NCBI RefSeq assembly: GCF_003635045.1
Contig: NZ_RBXT01000001.1
Span: 620,001 to 684,000, forward strand
Direction: 5' to 3'
Source of the DNA: Terracoccus luteus
GTDB taxonomy: Bacteria > Actinomycetota > Actinomycetes > Actinomycetales > Dermatophilaceae
Length of the DNA: 64,000 nucleotides
Shown: in pieces, positions 849 to 64,000 of the stretch
Numbering within the stretch: the first letter of the stretch is position 1
How the letters are laid out: every line of letters begins with the position of its first letter
Translations under genes and position numbers: made by a program
Notes under the pieces: generated by a model
What the model was told of the DNA's origin: nothing
Databases searched by the model: none
Seen by the model: the letters and a program-made list of their open reading frames with translations, nothing else

Positions 849-3149
849 GTGACGCGACCCCCCGCCGACGAGCCCCGTCGCCCCGGCGACGACCGACCCC
901 GCCGCACTCCCGGCGGCACGCCCGGCCGGACGCCCGGCCGGACGCCCGGTCGGGCGGCTCAGACCCCCGGCCGCACCCCGCGGGCCGCCGCCGGGACGCG
1001 CACCACCCCCCGGTCGGGCGCCCCCACCACCGGACGGGGGTCCGCCTCCGCCGGGTCGGGCGCGAGGTCACCGAAGACGCCGGGCACCGCGAGCACCGCC
1101 CGCCGCAGCCCGGCATCCTCGGCATCGTCGGCCGCCCCGTCGTCACCGCGGGCACAGAGGGGGCAGGGGAGCGCCACGCCGCGGCAGGCCGCCCGCCCCG
1201 CCGCCCGGTCAACGTCCGCGTCGTCGGGCACCGGCCGCGGTCCCGCCCCCCGGCGGTCCGCTGCGGCACGGCGCGCCGGCAGCACCGGCGGCCCGCGGGG
1301 GCCCCGCGGACCCCGACGCCGGCTGCGCATCTCGCGGGCGAACCCCCGCCGCCGCGCGACGATCATGTTCGCCGTCGTCCTCGCGGTCTTCACCGTCTTC
1401 GCGGCGCAGCTGCTGCGCATCCAGGCCTTCGACGCCTCGGCCACGCAGGCCGCGGCGCTGCAGAAGCGCGCCGTCACCCACACGACGCCGCCGATGCGCG
1501 GGCAGATCGTCGACACCAACGGCGTCGTGCTCGCCGACTCGGTCGAGCGGTACACGCTCACCGTCGACCCCACGGTCGTCGACGAGTACAAGAAGCGGGT
1601 CGACGGGCGGGTCACGACGGTCGGGGTGGCCGGCGCCGTCGCCGACCTCGGACCCCTGCTCGGCATGAGCGCCGCCGAGCTGACCCCGCTGCTGACGAAG
1701 CCGAAGACGCGCTACGTCATCGTCAAGAAGGAGATCAACCCGACGGTGTGGGCCAAGATCCGCGCCCTGGGCATGCCCGGCATCGCCGCGGAGCGCCAGG
1801 CCGAGCGGGTCTACCCCAACGGCATGTCGGCGGCCCAGGTCGTCGGGTTCGTCCGCAACGACCAGACCCCGGGCGCCGGCGTCGAGTACATGCTCAACAG
1901 CACGCTGGCCGGCACCCCCGGCAAGACGGTGGCCGAGACGGCACGTGACGGCTACACCATCCCGGGGTCCGAGCGCACCGTGACCGAGGTGCAGAACGGG
2001 CGTGACGTCCGCCTCACCATCGACGCCGACATGCAGTGGTACGCCCAGAACGCGATCGCCAAGCAGGTCACCGCGGTCGGGGCCGAGTCGGGTACCGCCG
2101 TCGTCATCGAGGTCGCCACCGGCAAGGTGCGCGCCGCCGCGAGCTACCCGACCTTCGACCCCAACGACATCGCCGCCGCGGACAAGAAGACCCTCGGCAA
2201 CTTCGCCTTCAACGACGCCTTCGAGCCCGGCTCGACCGGCAAGCTCATGACGATGGCGGCGGCCCTCCAGGAGGGGGTGATCACGCCGACGACGGGCGTC
2301 ATCGTCCCCGAGCGGCTGCCGCGGGCCGGCATCCGGTTCAAGGACAACGAGGCCCACGGCGTCGAGAACATGACGGCCACCGGGGTCATCGGCAAGTCGT
2401 CGAACATGGGCACGATCCTCATCGGCGAGCGGGTCAAGCCCCAGGTCATGGAGTCGTACTACCGCAAGTTCGGCGTGGGCCAGAAGACGCCGATCGGCTT
2501 CCCCGGCGAGTCGGCCGGCGTGCTCGCCAAGGCGTCCGACTGGAACGCCCAGCAGCGCTACACCCTGCTCTTCGGCCAGGGCTACGCCGTCACCGCCGTG
2601 CAGGCCGCCAGCGTCTTCCAGACCATCGCCAACGGCGGCGTGCGCATCGCCCCGTCGCTCGTCGAGGGCACCGTCAACGACGCCGGCACCCTCGTGCCGA
2701 CGCCCGCCGCCACGGGGGAGCGGGTCGTCTCGCAGCAGACCGCCACCGAGCTCTCGCGGATGATGGAGGAGGTCACGGGCCCCGACGGCACCGCCCGCGA
2801 CGCCCGCATCAAGGGCTACCGCGTCGCCGGCAAGACCGGCACCGCCGACCGCTACGACGACAAGCTCAAGCGGTACAACGGCTTCACCGCCTCCTTCATC
2901 GGCTACGCGCCGGCCGAGAAGCCGAAGTACGTCGTCGCCGTCTTCATCCAGAAGCCCGCGTCGGGCATGTTCGGTGGCGCCCTCGCCGGCCCGGTGTTCA
3001 ACCAGGTCATGACCTACCTCATCGAGCGCGATAACACCCCGCCCAGCACGCCCTCGGACCTCGACTACCACGTGTGGGCGACGAAGCCCCTCAGCGACGA
3101 CGACCCGACGGTGCTGAGCGATGCCCGGGCCAAGCGCGACGGGCTGTAG
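849..3149 (+). CDS. ftsI: Penicillin-binding protein 2/3, septal transpeptidase FtsI
   Basis: Class B penicillin-binding protein that cross-links septal peptidoglycan with FtsW. GTG at 849 is chosen because AGGTG lies 5 bases upstream and the frame further upstream is non-conserved. The product is 766 residues. It has a very long Pro/Arg/Gly/Thr-rich cytoplasmic N-terminus (about 170 residues), a membrane segment at about 173-192, a PBP dimerisation domain, then the transpeptidase domain. Catalytic motifs are visible: S462-T-G-K465, S517-S-N519 and K662-T-G. Class B PBPs of this type are usually about 580-650 residues, so the N-terminal extension is the notable feature. It lies between ftsL and murE; the next gene appears to have its own -10 box. 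Confidence 0.95.
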   Translation: MTRPPADEPRRPGDDRPRRTPGGTPGRTPGRTPGRAAQTPGRTPRAAAGTRTTPRSGAPTTGRGSASAGSGARSPKTPGTASTARRSPASSASSAAPSSPRAQRGQGSATPRQAARPAARSTSASSGTGRGPAPRRSAAARRAGSTGGPRGPRGPRRRLRISRANPRRRATIMFAVVLAVFTVFAAQLLRIQAFDASATQAAALQKRAVTHTTPPMRGQIVDTNGVVLADSVERYTLTVDPTVVDEYKKRVDGRVTTVGVAGAVADLGPLLGMSAAELTPLLTKPKTRYVIVKKEINPTVWAKIRALGMPGIAAERQAERVYPNGMSAAQVVGFVRNDQTPGAGVEYMLNSTLAGTPGKTVAETARDGYTIPGSERTVTEVQNGRDVRLTIDADMQWYAQNAIAKQVTAVGAESGTAVVIEVATGKVRAAASYPTFDPNDIAAADKKTLGNFAFNDAFEPGSTGKLMTMAAALQEGVITPTTGVIVPERLPRAGIRFKDNEAHGVENMTATGVIGKSSNMGTILIGERVKPQVMESYYRKFGVGQKTPIGFPGESAGVLAKASDWNAQQRYTLLFGQGYAVTAVQAASVFQTIANGGVRIAPSLVEGTVNDAGTLVPTPAATGERVVSQQTATELSRMMEEVTGPDGTARDARIKGYRVAGKTGTADRYDDKLKRYNGFTASFIGYAPAEKPKYVVAVFIQKPASGMFGGALAGPVFNQVMTYLIERDNTPPSTPSDLDYHVWATKPLSDDDPTVLSDARAKRDGL
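915..950 (+). repeat. Three 12-bp tandem units inside the ftsI N-terminal extension
   Basis: Units GGCACGCCCGGC, CGGACGCCCGGC and CGGACGCCCGGT follow one another and encode a Gly-Arg-Thr-Pro repeat. The unit is a multiple of three, so copy number can change without a frameshift. It supports the view that the N-terminal extension is disordered and fast-evolving. Confidence 0.7.
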
Positions 3150-3152
3150 GTT
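3147..3152 (+). promoter_or_regulatory. Candidate -10 box for a leaderless murE transcript
   Basis: TAGGTT ends 8 nt before the murE GTG and overlaps the ftsI stop codon. A TAnnnT hexamer 6-8 nt before a start codon is the usual layout of actinobacterial leaderless promoters. No clear -35 is visible. It suggests murE can be transcribed apart from ftsI. Confidence 0.45.
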
Positions 3153-3160
3153 CGGGTGCC

Positions 3161-4828
3161 GTGCCACACCCGTTGACCCGTCTCCCGGCGCCGGGGCTGA
3201 CGCTCCACGCGCTGCTCACCCGGCTGCCTGAAGCGACCCCTTCCCCGGGCGACGCCGACCCGCTCGTCACCGGTGTCACGCTCGACAGCCGCAGCGTGCA
3301 GCCCGGCGACCTCTACGCCGCCCTGCCCGGCTTCAACGCGCACGGCGCCGACTACGCCGCGCAGGCGGTGCGCCAGGGGGCGGTCGCGGTGCTCACCGAC
3401 CCGTCCGGGCGTGACCGCCTCGGCGACGAGGTGACGGATGCCGTCCCGGTCGTCGTCGTGGACGCCCCCCGAGGGGCCCTCGGCGGTCTCGCGGCCGAGG
3501 TGTACGGCCGGGCGGGCGAGGCCCTCACGATGCTCGGCATCACCGGCACGAACGGCAAGACGACGACCGCGTACCTCGTCGAGTCGGCCCTGCGGGCGCT
3601 CGGCCGGCGCACCGGGCTCATCGGCACCGTCGAGACCCGCGTCGGCGACGACCGGCTCGACTCCGAGCGCACGACGCCGGAGGCGACCGACCTGCACGCG
3701 CTGCTCGCCCTCATGCGCGAGCGCGGCGTCGACGCCTGCGTCATGGAGGTCTCCAGCCACGCCCTCGAGCTGCACCGGGTCGACGGCGTCGTCTACGACG
3801 TCGCCCTGTTCACCAACCTCTCGCAGGACCACCTCGACTTCCACCCCGACATGGAGGCCTACTTCCGGGCCAAGGCCTCGCTCTTCACCCCGGAGCGGTC
3901 GCACGCCGGGGTCGTCTGCGTCGACGACGCGTGGGGCGCCCGGCTCGCCGCCGACGCGACCGTCCCGGTGACGACGCTCGCAACCGGCGTCGTGACCCGG
4001 CCCGACGGCGACGTCGGGGGCGACGGGGGCGGCCCCGACCACGACGCCGACTGGGTCGTCCTGCCCAGCCCGGAGGAGGAGTCCCGCCCCGGCGCCTTCG
4101 TGCTGCACCGGCCCGCCACGGGGGAGCGGATGCACCTCGTCTCGCACCTCGCCGGCACCTTCAACGTCGCCAACACCGCCCTCGCCGCGCTCGCCCTGGC
4201 CTCGTGCGGGGTCGGGCTCGACGACGCGGCGGCGGCTATGGCCGTGCCGCCCGACGTCCCGGGCCGCATGCAGCTCGTGGCCGCCGCCGACGAGCACACG
4301 CCCGGCAGCCCCCGCTGCATCGTCGACTTCGCCCACACCCCCGACGCGGTCGACGCCGCGCTCGAGGCGCTGCGACCCTCGACCCCGGGGCGGCTCGTCG
4401 TCGTCCTCGGCGCCGGTGGCGACCGCGACCGCGGCAAGCGTCCCGCGATGGGCGCCGCCGCCGCGCGACGCGCCGACGTCGTCGTCGTCACCGACGACAA
4501 CCCCCGCTCCGAGGCGCCAGAGAGCATCCGCGAGGCCCTGCTCGCGGGCGCCCGCGCGACCGTCGACGAGCAGCGCGCGTCGGGCGCTCCGGTGGCGCAG
4601 CTCGTCGACGGCGGGGCCCGCTCCGCCGCCATCGCGCAGGCCGTCGAGCTGGCCACGACGGCGGCGCGCACGTCGGGCCTGGCCTCGACCGTGGCCGTGC
4701 TCGGAAAGGGACACGAGAAGGGCCAGCAGGTCGGCGCCGTCACCCACCCCTTCGACGACCGCGACGCCGTGCTCGCCGCTCTGCTCGCGGCGGCGGGCGA
4801 GTCGGCCCGCGCGGGGAGGACGTCATGA
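3161..4828 (+). CDS. murE: UDP-MurNAc-tripeptide synthetase MurE
   Basis: Cytoplasmic ATP-dependent ligase adding the third residue to UDP-MurNAc-L-Ala-D-Glu. The 555-residue product has the Mur ligase P-loop G129-T-N-G-K-T-T and the C-terminal specificity motif DNPRSEAP. In known MurE enzymes the DNPR motif marks diaminopimelate rather than lysine as substrate, so a DAP-type peptidoglycan is inferred. The GTG at 3161 follows a TAGGTT -10 box; upstream codons in the same frame lie within ftsI and lack family similarity. A non-conserved Asp/Gly-rich insert (about residues 280-300) sits in the central domain. It overlaps murF by four bases. Confidence 0.96.
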   Translation: MPHPLTRLPAPGLTLHALLTRLPEATPSPGDADPLVTGVTLDSRSVQPGDLYAALPGFNAHGADYAAQAVRQGAVAVLTDPSGRDRLGDEVTDAVPVVVVDAPRGALGGLAAEVYGRAGEALTMLGITGTNGKTTTAYLVESALRALGRRTGLIGTVETRVGDDRLDSERTTPEATDLHALLALMRERGVDACVMEVSSHALELHRVDGVVYDVALFTNLSQDHLDFHPDMEAYFRAKASLFTPERSHAGVVCVDDAWGARLAADATVPVTTLATGVVTRPDGDVGGDGGGPDHDADWVVLPSPEEESRPGAFVLHRPATGERMHLVSHLAGTFNVANTALAALALASCGVGLDDAAAAMAVPPDVPGRMQLVAAADEHTPGSPRCIVDFAHTPDAVDAALEALRPSTPGRLVVVLGAGGDRDRGKRPAMGAAAARRADVVVVTDDNPRSEAPESIREALLAGARATVDEQRASGAPVAQLVDGGARSAAIAQAVELATTAARTSGLASTVAVLGKGHEKGQQVGAVTHPFDDRDAVLAALLAAAGESARAGRTS

Positions 4829-6540
4829 TCCCCCTGCGGCTCGACGAGGTGGCCGAGGCCACCGGTGGCGTCGTGCACGGCTGCGACGACCCGGCATCCG
4901 TGCTCGTCGACGGTCCCGTCACCACCGACTCACGCGAGTGCGGCCCCGGCGGGCTCTACGTGGCGCGCGTCGGTGAGCACGCCGACGGCCACGACTACGT
5001 GCCCGCGGCGCTCGCCGCCGGTGCCGTGGCCGTGCTCGGCTCCCGCCCGGTCGACGGTGTGGGTGTCGTCGTCGACGACGTGCAGGAGGCCTTCGGTCGC
5101 CTCGCCCGCGTCGTCGTCGACCGGGCCGTCGCCGGTGGGCTGCACGTCGTCGGCATCACCGGCTCGTCGGGCAAGACGAGCACGAAGGACCTCCTCGCCT
5201 CGGTGCTCGCCGGCAGCGGTGAGACCGTCGCGCCCGTCAACTCGCTCAACGGCGAGATCGGGGTGCCGCTGACGGTCTGCCGGGTCACGCCGACGACACG
5301 CCACCTCGTCGTCGAGATGGGCGCGCGCGGGGTCGGCCACATCGACTACCTCACCCGCATCGCGCCGCCCGCCGTCGCCGTCGTGCTCAACGTCGGGTCG
5401 GCCCACGTCGGCGAGTTCGGCAGCCGCGAGAACATCGCCCGGGCCAAGAGCGAGCTGCCCCGCGCCGTCGCGGCCGACGGCCTCAGCGTGCTCAACGCCG
5501 ACGACCCCCTCGTGCGCGGCATGGCCGACAGGCTCGCCTCACGCGTCGTGCTCGTCGGCACCGCACCGGATGCCGACGTGCGGGCCACCGACGTCACCCT
5601 CGACCCGCTGGGGCGCGCCCGCTTCACCCTCGTCACCGCGGGCGGCAGCCGGCCCGTGACGCTGCGCCAGAGCGGTGCCCACCACGTCGGCAACGCCCTC
5701 GCCGTGGCCGCCGTCGCCCTCGAGCTCGGCGTCGGGCTCGACGACGTCGCCCACCGCCTGTCCGAGGCCGTCGCCGTCAGCCGGTGGCGCATGGAGGTGA
5801 CCGAGCGCCCCGACGGCGTCACCGTGGTCAACGACGCCTACAACGCCAACCCCGAGTCGATGCTGGCGGCCCTCGAGGCGCTCGCGGCCATCGAGACCGA
5901 CGGCCGGCGCTGGGCCGTGCTCGGCAGCATGCTCGAGCTCGGCGAGGACGCCGACGCCGAGCACGCGGCCCTGCTCGGTCACGCCACCCGGCTCGGCGTC
6001 GACGAGGTCGTCGCCGTCGGTGACGGCGCCCGGGCCATCGGCGCCCCGACCTGGTTGCCCGACCGCGACGCCGCCCACGACCTGCTCGCCGACCGACTGC
6101 GCCCCGGCGACGTCGTGCTGCTGAAGTCGAGCCGCGACAGCGGCCTGCGCTGGCTCGGCGACCGGCTCGCCGGCACAGGCGAGTACGCCCCGTCGGTCAC
6201 CTTGTCGACCGACCCGTCGACCGACCCGGCGACCACCACGTCAACCTCCCGGGCCGCCGGGGCGTCGAGTGGCGGGGGCGGTGGGGTACGGCCCGACGAC
6301 GGTCACGCCCGCGCGGGCGCCGGCCCCGACGGCATCCTCGACGGATCTCGGGACGACATCCTCGACGACGACCGGGGCGAGCGACCGGACGAGACCTCCG
6401 GCACGGACCACACGAGCGAACCAGGCGACACGGACAGCGACGGCATGCACAGCGACACGACCAGACCCCCGACGAGCCCCGACGGCACCGGCGACGGCAG
6501 CGACACCAGCGAGACCGGCGACGGGGGGAGGGCACGGTGA
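4825..6540 (+). CDS. murF: UDP-MurNAc-tripeptide:D-Ala-D-Ala ligase MurF
   Basis: Adds D-Ala-D-Ala to complete the UDP-MurNAc-pentapeptide. The P-loop G113-S-S-G-K-T-S and the conserved NDAYNANP motif (about residue 336) are present. The start is the ATG in the ATGA overlap with murE. The product is 571 residues, about 100 longer than usual. From about residue 458 it becomes a low-complexity Asp/Thr/Gly/Ser-rich tail that runs to the mraY overlap. The tail has no recognised domain and is probably disordered; it could be a fast-evolving extension or a domain linker. Enzyme identity is secure; the role of the tail is unknown. Confidence 0.96.
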
Positions 6541-7619
6541 AGGGCGTCCTCTACGCGGCGGCCTTCTCGCTCGTCATCTCGCTGCTCGGCACACCGGTCT
6601 TCATCCGCTTCCTCGTCAAGCGCGGCTACGGGCAGTTCATCCGTGACGACGGCCCGACCTCGCACCACACCAAGCGCGGCACCCCGACGATGGGCGGCGC
6701 GATCATCATCGCCGCGACCGTCGGCGCCTACGCGCTCGCGCACCTCTTCACCCTCAACCCACCCTCGGCGAGCGGCCTGCTCGTGCTGTTCCTCATGGTG
6801 GGCCTCGGGCTCGTGGGCTTCCTCGACGACTTCATCAAGATCAGCAAGCAGCGCAGCCTCGGGCTGCGCTCGAAGCAGAAGCTCGCGGGGCAGACGCTCG
6901 TCGGCGTCATCTTCGCAGGACTCGCGCTGCAGTTCCCGAACGACCAGTACCGCACGCCCGCCTCGCCGTTCATCTCCTTCGTGCGCGACACGAACATCAG
7001 CCTCGCCTTCGCCGGCACCATCGTCGGCACGCTGCTGTTCATCGCCTGGGCCAACCTCATGATCGCCGGCACCTCGAACGGGGTGAACCTCACCGACGGC
7101 CTCGACGGGCTCGCCACCGGCGTCTCGACGATGGTCTTCGGCGCCTACGTGCTCATCAGCCTCTGGACGTACAACCAGAACTGCCAGACCAACCCGGGCA
7201 TCAAGTGCTACGAGGTGCGCGACTCGCACGACCTCGCGCTCATCGCCGCCGCCGGCATGGGCGCCTGCTTCGGGTTCCTCTGGTGGAACGCGACGCCGGC
7301 CAAGATCTTCATGGGTGACACCGGCTCGCTCGCCCTCGGCGGCGCGCTCGCCGGCCTCGCCATCACGACCCGCACCGAGCTGCTCATCATCATCCTCGGC
7401 GGCCTGTTCGTGCTCGAGACGCTGTCGGTCATCATGCAGGTGGCCTCGTTCAAGACGACCGGTAAACGCATCTTCAGGATCGCGCCGATCCACCACCACT
7501 TCGAGATGGTGGGGTGGAACGAGGTGACCGTCGTCGTCCGGTTCTGGATCATCGCCGGCCTCTTCGTGGCGCTCGGGCTCGGCATCTTCTACGCCGAATG
7601 GGTGGTGGGCTCCCAGTGA
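6537..7619 (+). CDS. mraY: Phospho-MurNAc-pentapeptide translocase MraY
   Basis: Integral membrane enzyme that transfers phospho-MurNAc-pentapeptide to undecaprenyl phosphate, forming lipid I. At 360 residues it has the normal length and about ten membrane segments. Hallmarks are the D97-D98 pair in the LDDFIKI loop, the N184-L-T-D-G-L-D-G motif and the H319-H-H triad (HHHFEMVGW) near the C-terminus. The GTG start overlaps the murF stop (GTGA), so translation is probably coupled. It sits between murF and murD as in nearly all actinobacterial dcw clusters. Confidence 0.98.
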
Positions 7620-9106
7620 CCGTCTTCGACCCGTCCTACGAGCCGCGCGAGGGCCTGACGCACCGCGACGCCGACTGGTCGGGGCTGTCGGTGCTCGTCG
7701 TCGGTCTCGGTGTCTCGGGGTTCGCCGCCGCCGACGCCCTCGCCGAGCGTGGCGCCCGGGTGGTCGCGGTCTCCCGCGACAGCACCGACGCCATCACCGA
7801 GCGCGCCACCATCCTCGACATCCTCGGGGTCGACGTGCGACTCGGGGCCGAGCACGTCGTCGACGTGCCCGAGGGCACCGAGCTCGTCGTCACCTCACCC
7901 GGCGTGCCCCCGCACGACCCGCTCATGCTCTCGGCCGCCACCCGTGGCGTGCCGGTGTGGGGCGAGGTCGAGCTGGCCTGGCGGATGCGGGCCCGCGAGG
8001 GCGCGGCGCCGTGGCTCACCGTGACCGGCACCAACGGCAAGACGACGACGGTACGCATGCTCGCCTCGATCCTGCAGCACGCCGGGCTGCGGGCGACCGC
8101 GGCCGGCAACGTCGGCACGCCCCTGCTCGAGGCCGTGCTGCATCCCGAGCCCTACGACGTGCTCGCCGTCGAGCTGTCGAGCTTCCAGCTGCACTGGCAG
8201 CGGTCGGTCTCGGCCGTGGCGTCGGCCGTGCTCAACGTCGCGCCCGACCACCTCGACTGGCACGGCGGCTACGCCGAGTACCTGCGGGCCAAGGGCCGCA
8301 TCTACGACAACACCCACCTCGCCTGTGTCTACAACGTCGCCGACGTCCAGACCGAGCAGCTGGTGATGGACGCCGAGGTGGTCGACGGATGCCGGGCGGT
8401 CGGCTTCACGATGGGCATCCCCGCCCCCTCGATGATCGGCATCGTCGACGACGTCCTCGCCGACCGCGCCTTCGTCGAGCAGCGCCAGCGCTCGGCCGCC
8501 GAGCTGTGCACCGTCGCCGACCTGCAGGGCGACGGCCCGCCGGTACCGCCCCACGTCGTGGCCAACGCCCTCGCCGCCGCGGCGCTGGCCCGTGCCTACG
8601 GTGTCGGGCCGATCGCCGTGCGCGACGGGCTCCGGGCCTTCCGGCCCGAGCGGCACCGCATCGCCGAGCTCGCCACGGTGCGCGGGGTGCGCTACGTCAA
8701 CGACTCCAAGGCGACCAACCCGCACGCCGCTGCGGCCGCCCTCGGCTCGTTCGACTCGGTCGTCTGGGTCGCCGGCGGGCTGCTCAAGGGAGCCGACGTC
8801 GACGCCCTCGTCGAGGAGATGGCCTCGCGCCTGCGCGGTGTCGTGCTCATCGGACGCGACCGCGAGCAGATCGCCCAAGCCCTCGAGCGACACGCGCCGG
8901 ATGTCCCCGTCGTCGACATCGCCGACACCGAGACTGGGGTCATGGATCTCGTCGTCGCGCAGGCCGCGCGCCTCGCGCAGCCCGGGGACGTCGTGCTGCT
9001 CGCCCCGGCCGCGGCGTCGATGGACATGTTCACCGACTACGGGGCCCGTGGTGACGCCTTCGAGGAGGCAGTCCGGCGGCTCGCCCTCGCGGGTGACGAC
9101 GAGTGA
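7616..9106 (+). CDS. murD: UDP-MurNAc-L-alanine:D-glutamate ligase MurD
   Basis: Cytoplasmic ligase adding D-Glu to UDP-MurNAc-L-Ala. The 496-residue protein has an N-terminal Rossmann-like UDP-binding segment ([17 protein letters not shown]), the ATP P-loop G138-T-N-G-K-T-T and the conserved [13 protein letters not shown] segment of the C-terminal domain. The GTG start overlaps the mraY stop by four bases, which decides it over an upstream in-frame ATG inside mraY. Neighbours and spacing fit one translationally coupled operon. Confidence 0.97.
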
Positions 9107-26240: not shown

Positions 26241-27362
26241 GTGCACGCCCGGGTCACGACGGCGTTCCGCCGTCAGCGGATGGCCGCGCTCGGGCTGGCC
26301 CCGGCCCTCGGCGACGCGGCGGCACCGGCATCCGCCCTCGACGTCGTGCGGGCGCTCGGCGCGCTGCAGGCCCAGGACCACGGCTCGGGCGTCTGGTCGC
26401 TCGGTGTGCGCTCGGGGCTCACGGCCGCCGATCTCGCGGAGGCGGTGGACCGCCGCGAGATCGTGCGCACGTGGCCCATGCGCGGCACGATCCACTGGGT
26501 CGCCGCCGAGGACGCCCGCTGGATGTGCCGGCTGCTGGCGTCCCCGCGCGCCGGCGCGCTCGTGTCGAGGTACGCCCAGCTCGGCATCACCGAGGCCGGC
26601 ATCGAGCGCAGCGGTGAGCTGTTCGAGACCCACCTGCGTGAGCCGATGAGCCGGCCCGACGTCGTCGCGCTGCTCGTCGAGCACGGCATCGACCCGACCG
26701 ACCAGCGCGCCTACCACCTCGTCGGCCACCACTGCATGACCGGCCTGCTGTGCCAGGGGCCCCTCATCGGTCGCCAGCCGAGCTTCGTGCTCATCGACTC
26801 CTGGGTGCCGCGCCCCCTCGCGCCCGGGCGGGAGGAGGCGATGGCCACGGTCGTGGAGCGGTACGTGCGGGGGCACGGTCCCGTGACGGAGAAGGACGTC
26901 GCCGGCTGGATGCTGCGCCCGCTCGGTTTCACCCGGGAGGCGCTGGCGCTGCTGGGCGACCGCCTCGAGCGCGAGGAGGTCGACGGGACGACGTGGCTCA
27001 CGAACGCCGACGCCGGACCCGCCTCCGGGGGTGGTCACCCCGATGCCGGCGTGCACCTGCTGCCGCAGTGGGACGAGCTGCTGCTCGGGTACCGCTCCCG
27101 TGACGTGTCGCTGCCACCCGAGCGCTTCCGGGCCGTCGTGCCCGGCCGCAACATGGTCTTCAAGCCCACCCTCGTCGTCGACGGTGAGGTCGCCGGCACG
27201 TGGCGTCGCGTCGCCCGCCGTGGCGGGGTGGTCGTCGAGGTCAGCCCCTTCGCCGCGATGTCCGCCCGGCGACGGCGGCAGCTCGAGGCCGCGGCCCAGG
27301 GGTACGGGCGCTTCCTCGGCACGGACGTCGAGCTGGCGGTGCTCGACCCGGACGCCGCGTGA
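26241..27362 (+). CDS. Winged-helix protein of the AlkZ/YcaQ (HTH_42) family
   Basis: The 373-residue product has the HTH_42 family pattern: VRALGALQAQDHGSGVWSLGVRSG, RTWPMRGTIHWVAAEDARWM, and the C-terminal LLPQWDELLLGYRSRD and RNMVFKPTLVVDGEVAGTW segments. The family includes AlkZ, a glycosylase that unhooks DNA interstrand crosslinks; its catalytic motif is Gln-x-Gln. A QAQ motif is seen here at residues 43-45. Whether this homologue is a glycosylase is inference. It starts 3 bases after dnaE, suggesting cotranscription with replication/repair functions. The GTG start is the first codon after dnaE. Confidence 0.8.
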   Translation: MHARVTTAFRRQRMAALGLAPALGDAAAPASALDVVRALGALQAQDHGSGVWSLGVRSGLTAADLAEAVDRREIVRTWPMRGTIHWVAAEDARWMCRLLASPRAGALVSRYAQLGITEAGIERSGELFETHLREPMSRPDVVALLVEHGIDPTDQRAYHLVGHHCMTGLLCQGPLIGRQPSFVLIDSWVPRPLAPGREEAMATVVERYVRGHGPVTEKDVAGWMLRPLGFTREALALLGDRLEREEVDGTTWLTNADAGPASGGGHPDAGVHLLPQWDELLLGYRSRDVSLPPERFRAVVPGRNMVFKPTLVVDGEVAGTWRRVARRGGVVVEVSPFAAMSARRRRQLEAAAQGYGRFLGTDVELAVLDPDAA

Positions 27363-62845: not shown

Positions 62846-62851
62846 TAACGT
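62846..62851 (+). promoter_or_regulatory. Candidate -10 box for leaderless mpg1
   Basis: TAACGT ends 7 nt before the GTG at 62859 and decides that start over an in-frame GTG at 62850 within the box. Confidence 0.5.
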
Positions 62852-62858
62852 GGGGCCG

Positions 62859-63491
62859 GTGACGACCGACCGGATGCCGCGTGGCTTCTTCGCGCGCCCG
62901 GCCACCGAGGTGGCGCCGGACCTCCTCGGGCGGCACCTCGCCTTCGGGGGCGTCACGGTGCGGCTCACCGAGGTCGAGGCGTACAGCGGCGAGGGCGACC
63001 CCGGGTCGCACGCCTACCGTGGCCCCACGCCGCGCACCCGCCCCATGTTCGGCCCGCCGGGGTTCACCTACGTCTACTTCACCTACGGCGCCCATTGGTG
63101 CGTCAACCTGGTCGTCGGCGAGGAGGGCAGCGCCTCCGCGGTGCTGCTGCGGGCGGCGGAGGTCCTCGACGGAGGCGATCTCGTGCAGCAGCGGCGCGGC
63201 CGCGCGCGCGTGGTCGACTGGGCTCGCGGTCCCGGACGGCTCGGGCAGGCCCTCGCCCTGCGCGGCGAGCACACCGGCCGCGACTTCTGCCGGCCGCCCC
63301 TGGGTGAGCCCATCGACCTGGCCGTCACCGCGGGCGACCCGGTGGCTCCCGACCGGGTGGCCACCGGCCCGCGGGTCGGGGTGAGCGGGCCCGGTGGCGA
63401 CGGGGACCTCTTCCCGTGGCGGTTCTGGGTGTCCGGTGACCCCAACGTGTCCGCCTACCGGCCGGGCGTGCGCCGCCGGGGCACGCGGTGA
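62859..63491 (+). CDS. 3-methyladenine DNA glycosylase (AAG/Mpg family), copy 1
   Basis: Base-excision glycosylase for alkylated purines. Aligning by eye to human AAG, catalytic Glu125 is E40 (EVEAY), Tyr127 is Y42, His136 is H51 and Asn169 is N83 (WCVNLV). The TPRTRPMF and VLLRA segments are conserved. The product is 210 residues, a standard length for bacterial Mpg. GTG 62859 follows a -10 box by 7 nt. The stop overlaps the start of a second Mpg gene. Confidence 0.93.
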   Translation: MTTDRMPRGFFARPATEVAPDLLGRHLAFGGVTVRLTEVEAYSGEGDPGSHAYRGPTPRTRPMFGPPGFTYVYFTYGAHWCVNLVVGEEGSASAVLLRAAEVLDGGDLVQQRRGRARVVDWARGPGRLGQALALRGEHTGRDFCRPPLGEPIDLAVTAGDPVAPDRVATGPRVGVSGPGGDGDLFPWRFWVSGDPNVSAYRPGVRRRGTR

Positions 63492-64000
63492 CGGGGCACC
63501 CCGTCGACCACGACGATCTACTGCGCCCGGTGACCGACGTCGCCCGCTCCCTGCTCGGCTGCCATGTCAGCAGGGCGGGCGTGACGGTGCGCATCACGGA
63601 GACCGAGGCCTACGCGGGCCTGACGGACCCCGCCTCGCGGGTGCTGTCGCGCCCGACGGCCCACAACGCGCCCGTCTTCGGCCCACCGGGGCACGCGTTC
63701 GTCTACTTCACCTACGGCCACCACTGGATGATGTGCGTCGTCACCGGGCCGGTCGGCGTGCCCGACGTCGTGCTGCTCCGGGCTGGCGAGGTCGTCGAGG
63801 GTCACGATGTCGTCGCCGCGCGCCGGGGTGGCGCCCGGCCGCGCGACTGGTGCCGTGGGCCGGGACGGCTGACCCGAGCGCTCGGCGTCGACGGCTCCTT
63901 CAGCGGCGTCGACCTCGTGACGGCGCGCCACCGGGGTGGGCCGGACCCCGACGAGGCGTTGCGCCTGACGACGGGGGATGCCGTGGGGCCGGCGTCCGTG
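63488..64000 (+). CDS. AAG/Mpg-family glycosylase, copy 2, divergent and truncated by the window end
   Basis: Starts at GTG in the four-base overlap with copy 1 and remains open to the end of the window (171 residues seen). It shares the fold pattern (VRITETEAYAG, FGPPGHAFVYFTYGHHW, VVLLRAGEVVEG). Catalytic Glu (E40) and Tyr (Y42) are kept, but the His136 position is R51 and the Asn169 position is C83. The TPR(N/T)R segment reads TAHNAP. It may have altered specificity or weak activity. The 3' end is missing, so its length is unknown. Confidence 0.85.
   Translation, partial: MTGHPVDHDDLLRPVTDVARSLLGCHVSRAGVTVRITETEAYAGLTDPASRVLSRPTAHNAPVFGPPGHAFVYFTYGHHWMMCVVTGPVGVPDVVLLRAGEVVEGHDVVAARRGGARPRDWCRGPGRLTRALGVDGSFSGVDLVTARHRGGPDPDEALRLTTGDAVGPASV

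Follow-up and report, generated by a model that had tools for sequence, protein, structure and literature searches.

In structures of human AAG (MPG), the base is framed by His136 and Asn169, the latter of which collides with the guanine 2-amino group. In the mechanism outlined in an excerpt of PMC12347255, Glu125 deprotonates the attacking water, Arg182 helps to coordinate this water, Tyr127 stacks on the base, and Tyr159 orients it. His136 is described, in the excerpted text of PMC13299579, as essential and invariant and as hydrogen-bonding with the flipped base. Engineered MPG variants that excise normal guanine contain N169S, accompanied by six further replacements, or N169G, accompanied by nine, and the simultaneous replacements E125A/Y127A/H136A provide a dead MPG control (PMC10317176, excerpt). 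For Kineococcus radiotolerans, one MPG is listed in an excerpt of PMC2587704. Neither a tandem Mpg pair nor a subfamily with Arg at position 136 is described among the best matches listed in our literature search, whose scope leaves most subscription papers outside; this agrees with an earlier sequence-only reading of the DNA studied here, which knew of no characterised tandem pair.

The analyzed window is a stretch of 64,000 nucleotides from Terracoccus luteus (C1:620001-684000 of a genome of 4,023,595 bases in one contig). The whole genome contains exactly two matches to PF02245, which are adjacent and free of internal stops (E 7.8e-58 and 1.1e-50). The first gene, mpg1 (62850..63491, + strand; GTG start at 62850 or 62859), encodes an ordinary Mpg/AAG-type DNA glycosylase with His136 and Asn169 kept, as judged from the list of open reading frames, PF02245, NF002003, and the residue table. 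The second, mpg2, occupies 63488..64000 of the window on the + strand and ends at 64141, with 171 of its 217 codons inside the window and the last 141 nt beyond the window end; the full gene (L003:2489-3142, equal to window positions 63488-64141) has a GTG start and a TGA stop. The stop of mpg1 and the start of mpg2 overlap by the four bases GTGA (63488..63491, + strand) in 9 out of 9 mpg2 carriers; the start is a predicted one, since seven of these nine have other in-frame GTG codons close by. The two T. luteus proteins are 55% identical, and both score above the cut-offs of PF02245 (172.6 bits for mpg2 and 196 bits for mpg1; cut-off 27) and NF002003 (193.2 and 240.3 bits, respectively; cut-off 182). 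The tandem Mpg pair with a four-base overlap proposed by the sequence-only reading is therefore borne out, and recovery of the full second gene gives an uninterrupted frame that reads open to the TGA at 64141, which rules out in this genome the frameshift past the window end that had been considered. Upstream of mpg1 lies a gene that we take to be argH, whereas mpg2 is followed by a presumed tyrS and then by 16S rRNA; relatives carry the argH and tyrS frames in corresponding positions. The window also holds an AlkZ-like DNA glycosylase gene (PF06224, 210.3 bits) at positions 26346-27314, approximately 35 kb before mpg1, and PF06224 has four matches in the T. luteus genome, one of them weak (34.5 bits).

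To compare the base pockets, residues were numbered by human AAG positions using a HMMER alignment to 1f4r and column tables. The comparison set, drawn from 170 matches after removal of short and identical ones, comprises 148 different Mpg domains of at least 150 residues from several phyla, namely 8 mpg2 and 140 others; its members were selected for similarity to mpg2 and PF02245, so it does not amount to a census. The Glu40 codon of mpg2 (63605..63607, + strand) aligns with the catalytic general base Glu125, which is kept. The Arg51 codon (CGG, 63638..63640, + strand) stands at human His136, a column with Arg in 8 out of 148 domains, every one of them mpg2, and His in the remaining 140. Further + strand codons with replacements are those for Arg55 (63650..63652) in the column of human Gly140, with Arg in all eight mpg2; His59 (63662..63664) at human Arg145, with His in all eight and Arg in 137 of the 140 others; and Phe71 (63698..63700) at human Tyr157, which changed together with position 136, since Phe is found in 8/8 mpg2 and Tyr in 140/140 others. 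The N-terminal piece of a broken mpg2 in another carrier (G039) shows the same changed residue set. The Cys83 codon (TGC, 63734..63736, + strand) corresponds to human Asn169, a column with Cys in 17 domains, i.e., in all eight mpg2 and in nine of the 140 others, all with His136; the latter include mpg1 of both Humibacillus genomes and the Mpgs of Knoellia sinensis, K. subterranea, Janibacter sp. HTCC2649, and Phycicoccus elongatus.

The alignment supports the assignments made by the sequence-only reading, which had placed Arg51 at His136, Cys83 at Asn169, and Glu40 at the catalytic Glu125. The conservation of R51 and C83, which it had proposed to check, holds for both residues in 8/8 mpg2, but C83 does not distinguish the paralogue, because nine His136 Mpgs share Cys169; for the same reason, N169C was rejected as a mark of new specificity. 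Since Cys169 occurs in ordinary Mpgs, the mark of mpg2 is rather the His136 to Arg replacement together with the changes at positions 137, 140, 145, 149, 157, and 178. Glu125, Tyr127, and Arg182 are kept in 148/148 domains, and Tyr159 and Tyr162 in 8/8 mpg2, so that the canonical AAG residues for water activation, base placement, and intercalation are all present in the eight mpg2. The canonical His136 is replaced by Arg in each of them, and for this reason we refrain from classifying mpg2 among the canonical 3-methyladenine glycosylases; the canonical Asn169 is likewise replaced by Cys in 8/8, although the Cys169/His136 Mpgs indicate that this position does not define the family here.

The predicted structure of the mpg2 orthologue from Terrabacter tumescens, which is 72% identical to T. 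luteus mpg2, has a mean pLDDT of 92.6 and superimposes on human AAG 1f6o with Z 28.0 and rmsd 2.0 over 190 aligned residues. As modelled for this orthologue, rather than for the T. luteus protein itself, mpg2 has the AAG fold, and by sequence and predicted fold it is a member of the MPG/AAG family. It shares with human AAG (1f6o, 1f4r, 1ewn) this modelled fold and the residues Glu125, Tyr127, Tyr159, Tyr162, and Arg182, but differs by His136 to Arg, Tyr157 to Phe, Arg145 to His, Asn169 to Cys, and Met149 to Val; the long unstructured N-terminus of the human protein, as described in the excerpt of PMC12347255, is missing from mpg2. The neighboring mpg1 and the single-copy Intrasporangiaceae Mpgs pass NF002003, as does mpg2, and mpg1 is likewise located between argH and tyrS; however, mpg1 retains His136, Arg145, and Tyr157 in contrast to the remodelled set of its partner. 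The Cys169 Mpgs of Knoellia, Janibacter sp. HTCC2649, and Phycicoccus elongatus have Met167 and Cys169 as in mpg2, whereas they have an ordinary pocket otherwise, His136 included, and the gene is present in a single copy. The engineered MPG of the G base editor also carries a changed position 169 (Ser or Gly), but its six or nine further changes, as given in the excerpt of PMC10317176, do not include His136, and mpg2, a natural variant, carries a different set. The AlkX/AlkZ-type (HTH_42) glycosylases of actinomycetes are a further glycosylase family that has members with special functions; they belong to another superfamily, and the example in the excerpt of PMC9040887 is tied to a genotoxin gene cluster, whereas mpg2 is located between argH/mpg1 and tyrS.

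From the pattern of kept and replaced residues, we lean towards reading mpg2 as an active glycosylase whose pocket was rebuilt after duplication of mpg and whose lesion set would differ from that of mpg1. In such an enzyme, the retained Tyr162 would intercalate and flip out the damaged nucleotide, Tyr127 would provide the stacking surface for it, and Glu125 and Arg182 would activate the water. The changed position 169 may give the pocket room for a guanine-type base, and Arg136 together with this change would favor neutral guanine-like lesions, such as deaminated or oxidised purines with an O6/N7 edge that Arg can bind; cationic 3-methyladenine and 7-methylguanine would be disfavored and should both be handled by mpg1. 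The GTGA overlap may couple translation of mpg2 to that of mpg1. The fuller proposal, i.e., a natural AAG-fold subfamily with an invariant pocket His to Arg replacement, a pocket rebuilt as a unit, a new specificity for neutral guanine-type lesions, and a translationally coupled pair, is tentative, and we regard it as a possible rather than a probable account. The sequence-only reading had assigned to both His136 and Asn169 a part in excluding guanine; for Asn169 this gains indirect support from the N169S and N169G replacements in guanine-excising MPGs (PMC10317176, excerpt), whereas His136 is described in the excerpt of PMC13299579 as a hydrogen-bond partner. The latter source also calls His136 essential, and H136A is part of the dead MPG described in the excerpt of PMC10317176, so mpg2 may be inactive.

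The absence from mpg2 of Arg145, present in 137 of the 140 other Mpgs, also counts against an active glycosylase. A protein without glycosylase activity could have persisted in a lesion-binding or partner role, its production tied to that of mpg1, for instance for lesion marking or for modulation of mpg1, and the overlapping genes, which suggest co-translation, would suit such a role. AAG enzymes are not known to act in pairs, however, and this counts against it. The replacement in 8/8 mpg2 of a residue called essential (PMC13299579, excerpt) agrees with a protein that only binds, yet Glu125, Arg182, Tyr127, and Tyr159, with the roles given in the excerpt of PMC12347255, are kept in all eight, and a pure binder needs no Glu125; on balance, we find this explanation rather unlikely.

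The preferred reading of mpg2 as an active enzyme with a rebuilt pocket also draws support from the distribution of changes along the domain. We defined as conserved those columns in which one residue reaches at least 90% in the 140 other Mpg domains, which gave 40 columns. Eight of them (136, 137, 140, 145, 149, 157, 169, and 178) have switched to one identical residue in 8/8 mpg2, and 25 are unchanged in 8/8; columns 122, 225, and 260 differ in one mpg2 row only, and columns 261, 263, 274, and 276 fail only by a gap in one mpg2 row that is cut at a contig end. All eight switched columns fall within 136-178, a stretch with 15 of the 40 conserved columns, and the chance of such clustering, calculated by hand for a stretch that was picked after the data were seen, is about 8 in 100,000. 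When an 85% threshold was combined with near-absence of the new residue elsewhere, mpg2 showed six fixed differences, and the same test gave none in nine mpg1 from the same genomes and none in seven single-copy Cys169 Mpgs. The mpg2 proteins are 64-72% identical to T. luteus mpg2, with the new pocket residues still invariant. Judged by these alignments, the pocket of mpg2 is a conserved and remodelled one and not a product of decay.

The phylogeny of mpg2 was analyzed in a quick tree of 98 rows and in a careful tree of 67 rows, for which 31 rows were left out (seven with long branches or an uncertain place, two from Actinomadura, and 22 for thinning). In both trees mpg2 constitutes one clade (support 100/99 and 100 for the careful and quick trees, respectively), and not the randomly decaying copies that the sequence-only reading had thought a tree might reveal. 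In the careful tree its stem branch is long (0.39 changes per column), and the clade lies inside a 30-row group (95/98) with mpg1 from the same genomes and the Mpgs of Knoellia and Phycicoccus. The grouping of mpg2 with mpg1 of Terrabacter, Humibacillus, and G045 has a support of only 74/89 in this tree, whereas the quick tree places mpg2 outside that mpg1 clade. A duplication of mpg near the base of the Terrabacter-Humibacillus group, followed by losses, fits best, and this date is provisional. The long stem branch bears on another explanation, by which mpg2 is redundant with the usual Mpg substrates and its pocket changes are tolerated drift fixed on that single branch, as its length makes chance fixation possible. 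The gene is also broken or missing in several close relatives, and the Asn169 to Cys change is tolerated in nine ordinary Mpgs. Drift of this kind is nevertheless hard to reconcile with eight fixed changes confined to 136-178, with no change in 25 of the remaining 32 conserved columns, or with new residues that then stay invariant in proteins that have otherwise diverged; thus we consider such redundancy unlikely.

We identified mpg2 in 9 out of 186 genomes of the family, always directly after mpg1. The carriers are T. luteus (G000), Terrabacter tumescens (G178), T. aerolatus (G170), Terrabacter sp. Root85 (G174), Terracoccus sp. 273MFTsu3.1 (G171), G040, G039, and two Humibacillus genomes (G017 and G018). 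The gene is intact and full-length in seven of them and open up to the contig end in G018, whereas the G039 copy is frameshifted near codons 81-84, which may reflect either a genuine mutation or an artefact of sequencing. An intact mpg2 is missing from five members of the Terrabacter group (G172, G173, G175, G176, and G177) and from G045: Terrabacter sp. Ter38 (G177) has a clear relic with an internal deletion, G172 has a possible and more decayed relic that was recognised by eye (tblastn E 2.7, not significant), and in the remaining four no mpg2 match better than E 0.45 was found in the mpg1-tyrS gap, which measures 113-169 nt in these genomes and 719-855 nt in the eight carriers whose sequence reaches tyrS. 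Because it is frameshifted, a relic, or absent in several relatives, mpg2 is dispensable rather than essential. Pairwise dN/dS values (NG86) were calculated for the seven full intact pairs, i.e., without G018 and G039, giving 21 comparisons for each gene and using the last 202 codons of mpg1. They range from 0.16 to 0.37 for mpg2 versus 0.06 to 0.37 for mpg1, and the mpg2 value is higher in 13 of the 21 comparisons, lower in six, and equal to two digits in two. As estimated from these sequences, mpg2 is under purifying selection that is somewhat weaker than that on mpg1. That mpg2 is a pseudogene on its way out, which the frameshifted G039 copy, the G177 relic, and the possible G172 relic might suggest, is highly improbable given its intact frames in seven genomes, an open one to the contig end in an eighth, and dN/dS far below 1 in 21/21 pairs. 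For the T. luteus gene this interpretation was rejected outright on its full-length frame without internal stop, and the decaying pseudogene that the sequence-only reading had named as the alternative is not what this genome contains, though relatives show a broken copy, a relic, or none.

Outside the family, no mpg2-like match was found by similarity scores in 396 sampled genomes of the order or in 394 of the class (E limit 1e-60), searches that an Arg136 Mpg elsewhere could escape; the best non-family score was 244 bits (G186), compared to 253 bits for the own mpg1 and 367 bits for the own mpg2. Two matches occur in certain genomes from outside the family, as in G650, whose two long Mpgs lie on separate contigs. 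A plasmid search returned 130 records, all below 60% identity, and no relative was found among 28 pattern matches in viral contigs. At least two matched stretches are present in 17 of the 186 family genomes, of which nine represent mpg1 with mpg2 and one (G177) the relic; broken mpg2 copies could escape this count, and that of G039 came from locus-level inspection. In G088 the additional match is weak (E 6.2e-4) and lies on a different contig, G151 has one frame matched in two pieces, and G011, G047, G109, G119, and G155 have an interrupted or frameshifted mpg and not the mpg1/mpg2 tandem.

In three of the latter genomes (G109, G047, and G155), mpg is broken at one common place, the Tyr162-Gly163 motif (His-Gly in G109). 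The interrupted genes are located at L199 (G109:C32:6000-16500) 1123-8977, L200 (G047:C77:4500-13500) 1055-7674, and L201 (G155) 1400-2270. The G109 and G047 inserts encode large serine recombinases (PF00239, PF07508) that are 42% identical to each other; the G109 insert has its own full Mpg adjoining the recombinase, and the broken N-terminal mpg piece of G155 is followed by a full but divergent Mpg. These arrangements suggest that mpg may be used as an attachment site and that some of the elements supply a substitute Mpg. Our literature search found no paper that brings together a serine integrase, attB, and a methyladenine DNA glycosylase, and the matches to the Mpg of the G109 element in 13 phage records are all distant (below 60%). 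In G011, an insertion that contains an ISL3-type transposase (PF01610) divides mpg at L202 (G011:C1:1165000-1169000) 1520-2611.

The repair gene content was compared in 15 genomes, including nine mpg2 carriers (with the broken G039 copy counted) and six genomes without mpg2. Tag was identified in 14, AlkZ-like proteins in all 15, AlkD-like proteins in 11, and endonuclease V in none, and the presence of mpg2 tracks none of these four across the 15 genomes. Since a match to endonuclease V is absent, hypoxanthine repair may rest on Mpg in all 15 genomes; the absence does not explain mpg2, because it is common to carriers and non-carriers alike. G039 contains three AlkZ-like genes of equal score (217.4 bits; C1:7204-8247, C1:14135-15178, and C2:1588470-1589513), possibly the result of a recent multiplication.

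The annotation "DNA-3-methyladenine glycosylase" hides the distinct mpg2 subfamily. With an ordinary paralogue beside one that has a few fixed pocket changes and a kept catalytic core, the mpg1/mpg2 pair amounts to a natural experiment in changed glycosylase recognition, which makes the roles of His136, Tyr157, and Arg145 directly testable, and the mpg2 sequences are starting points for the engineering of purine-excising enzymes.
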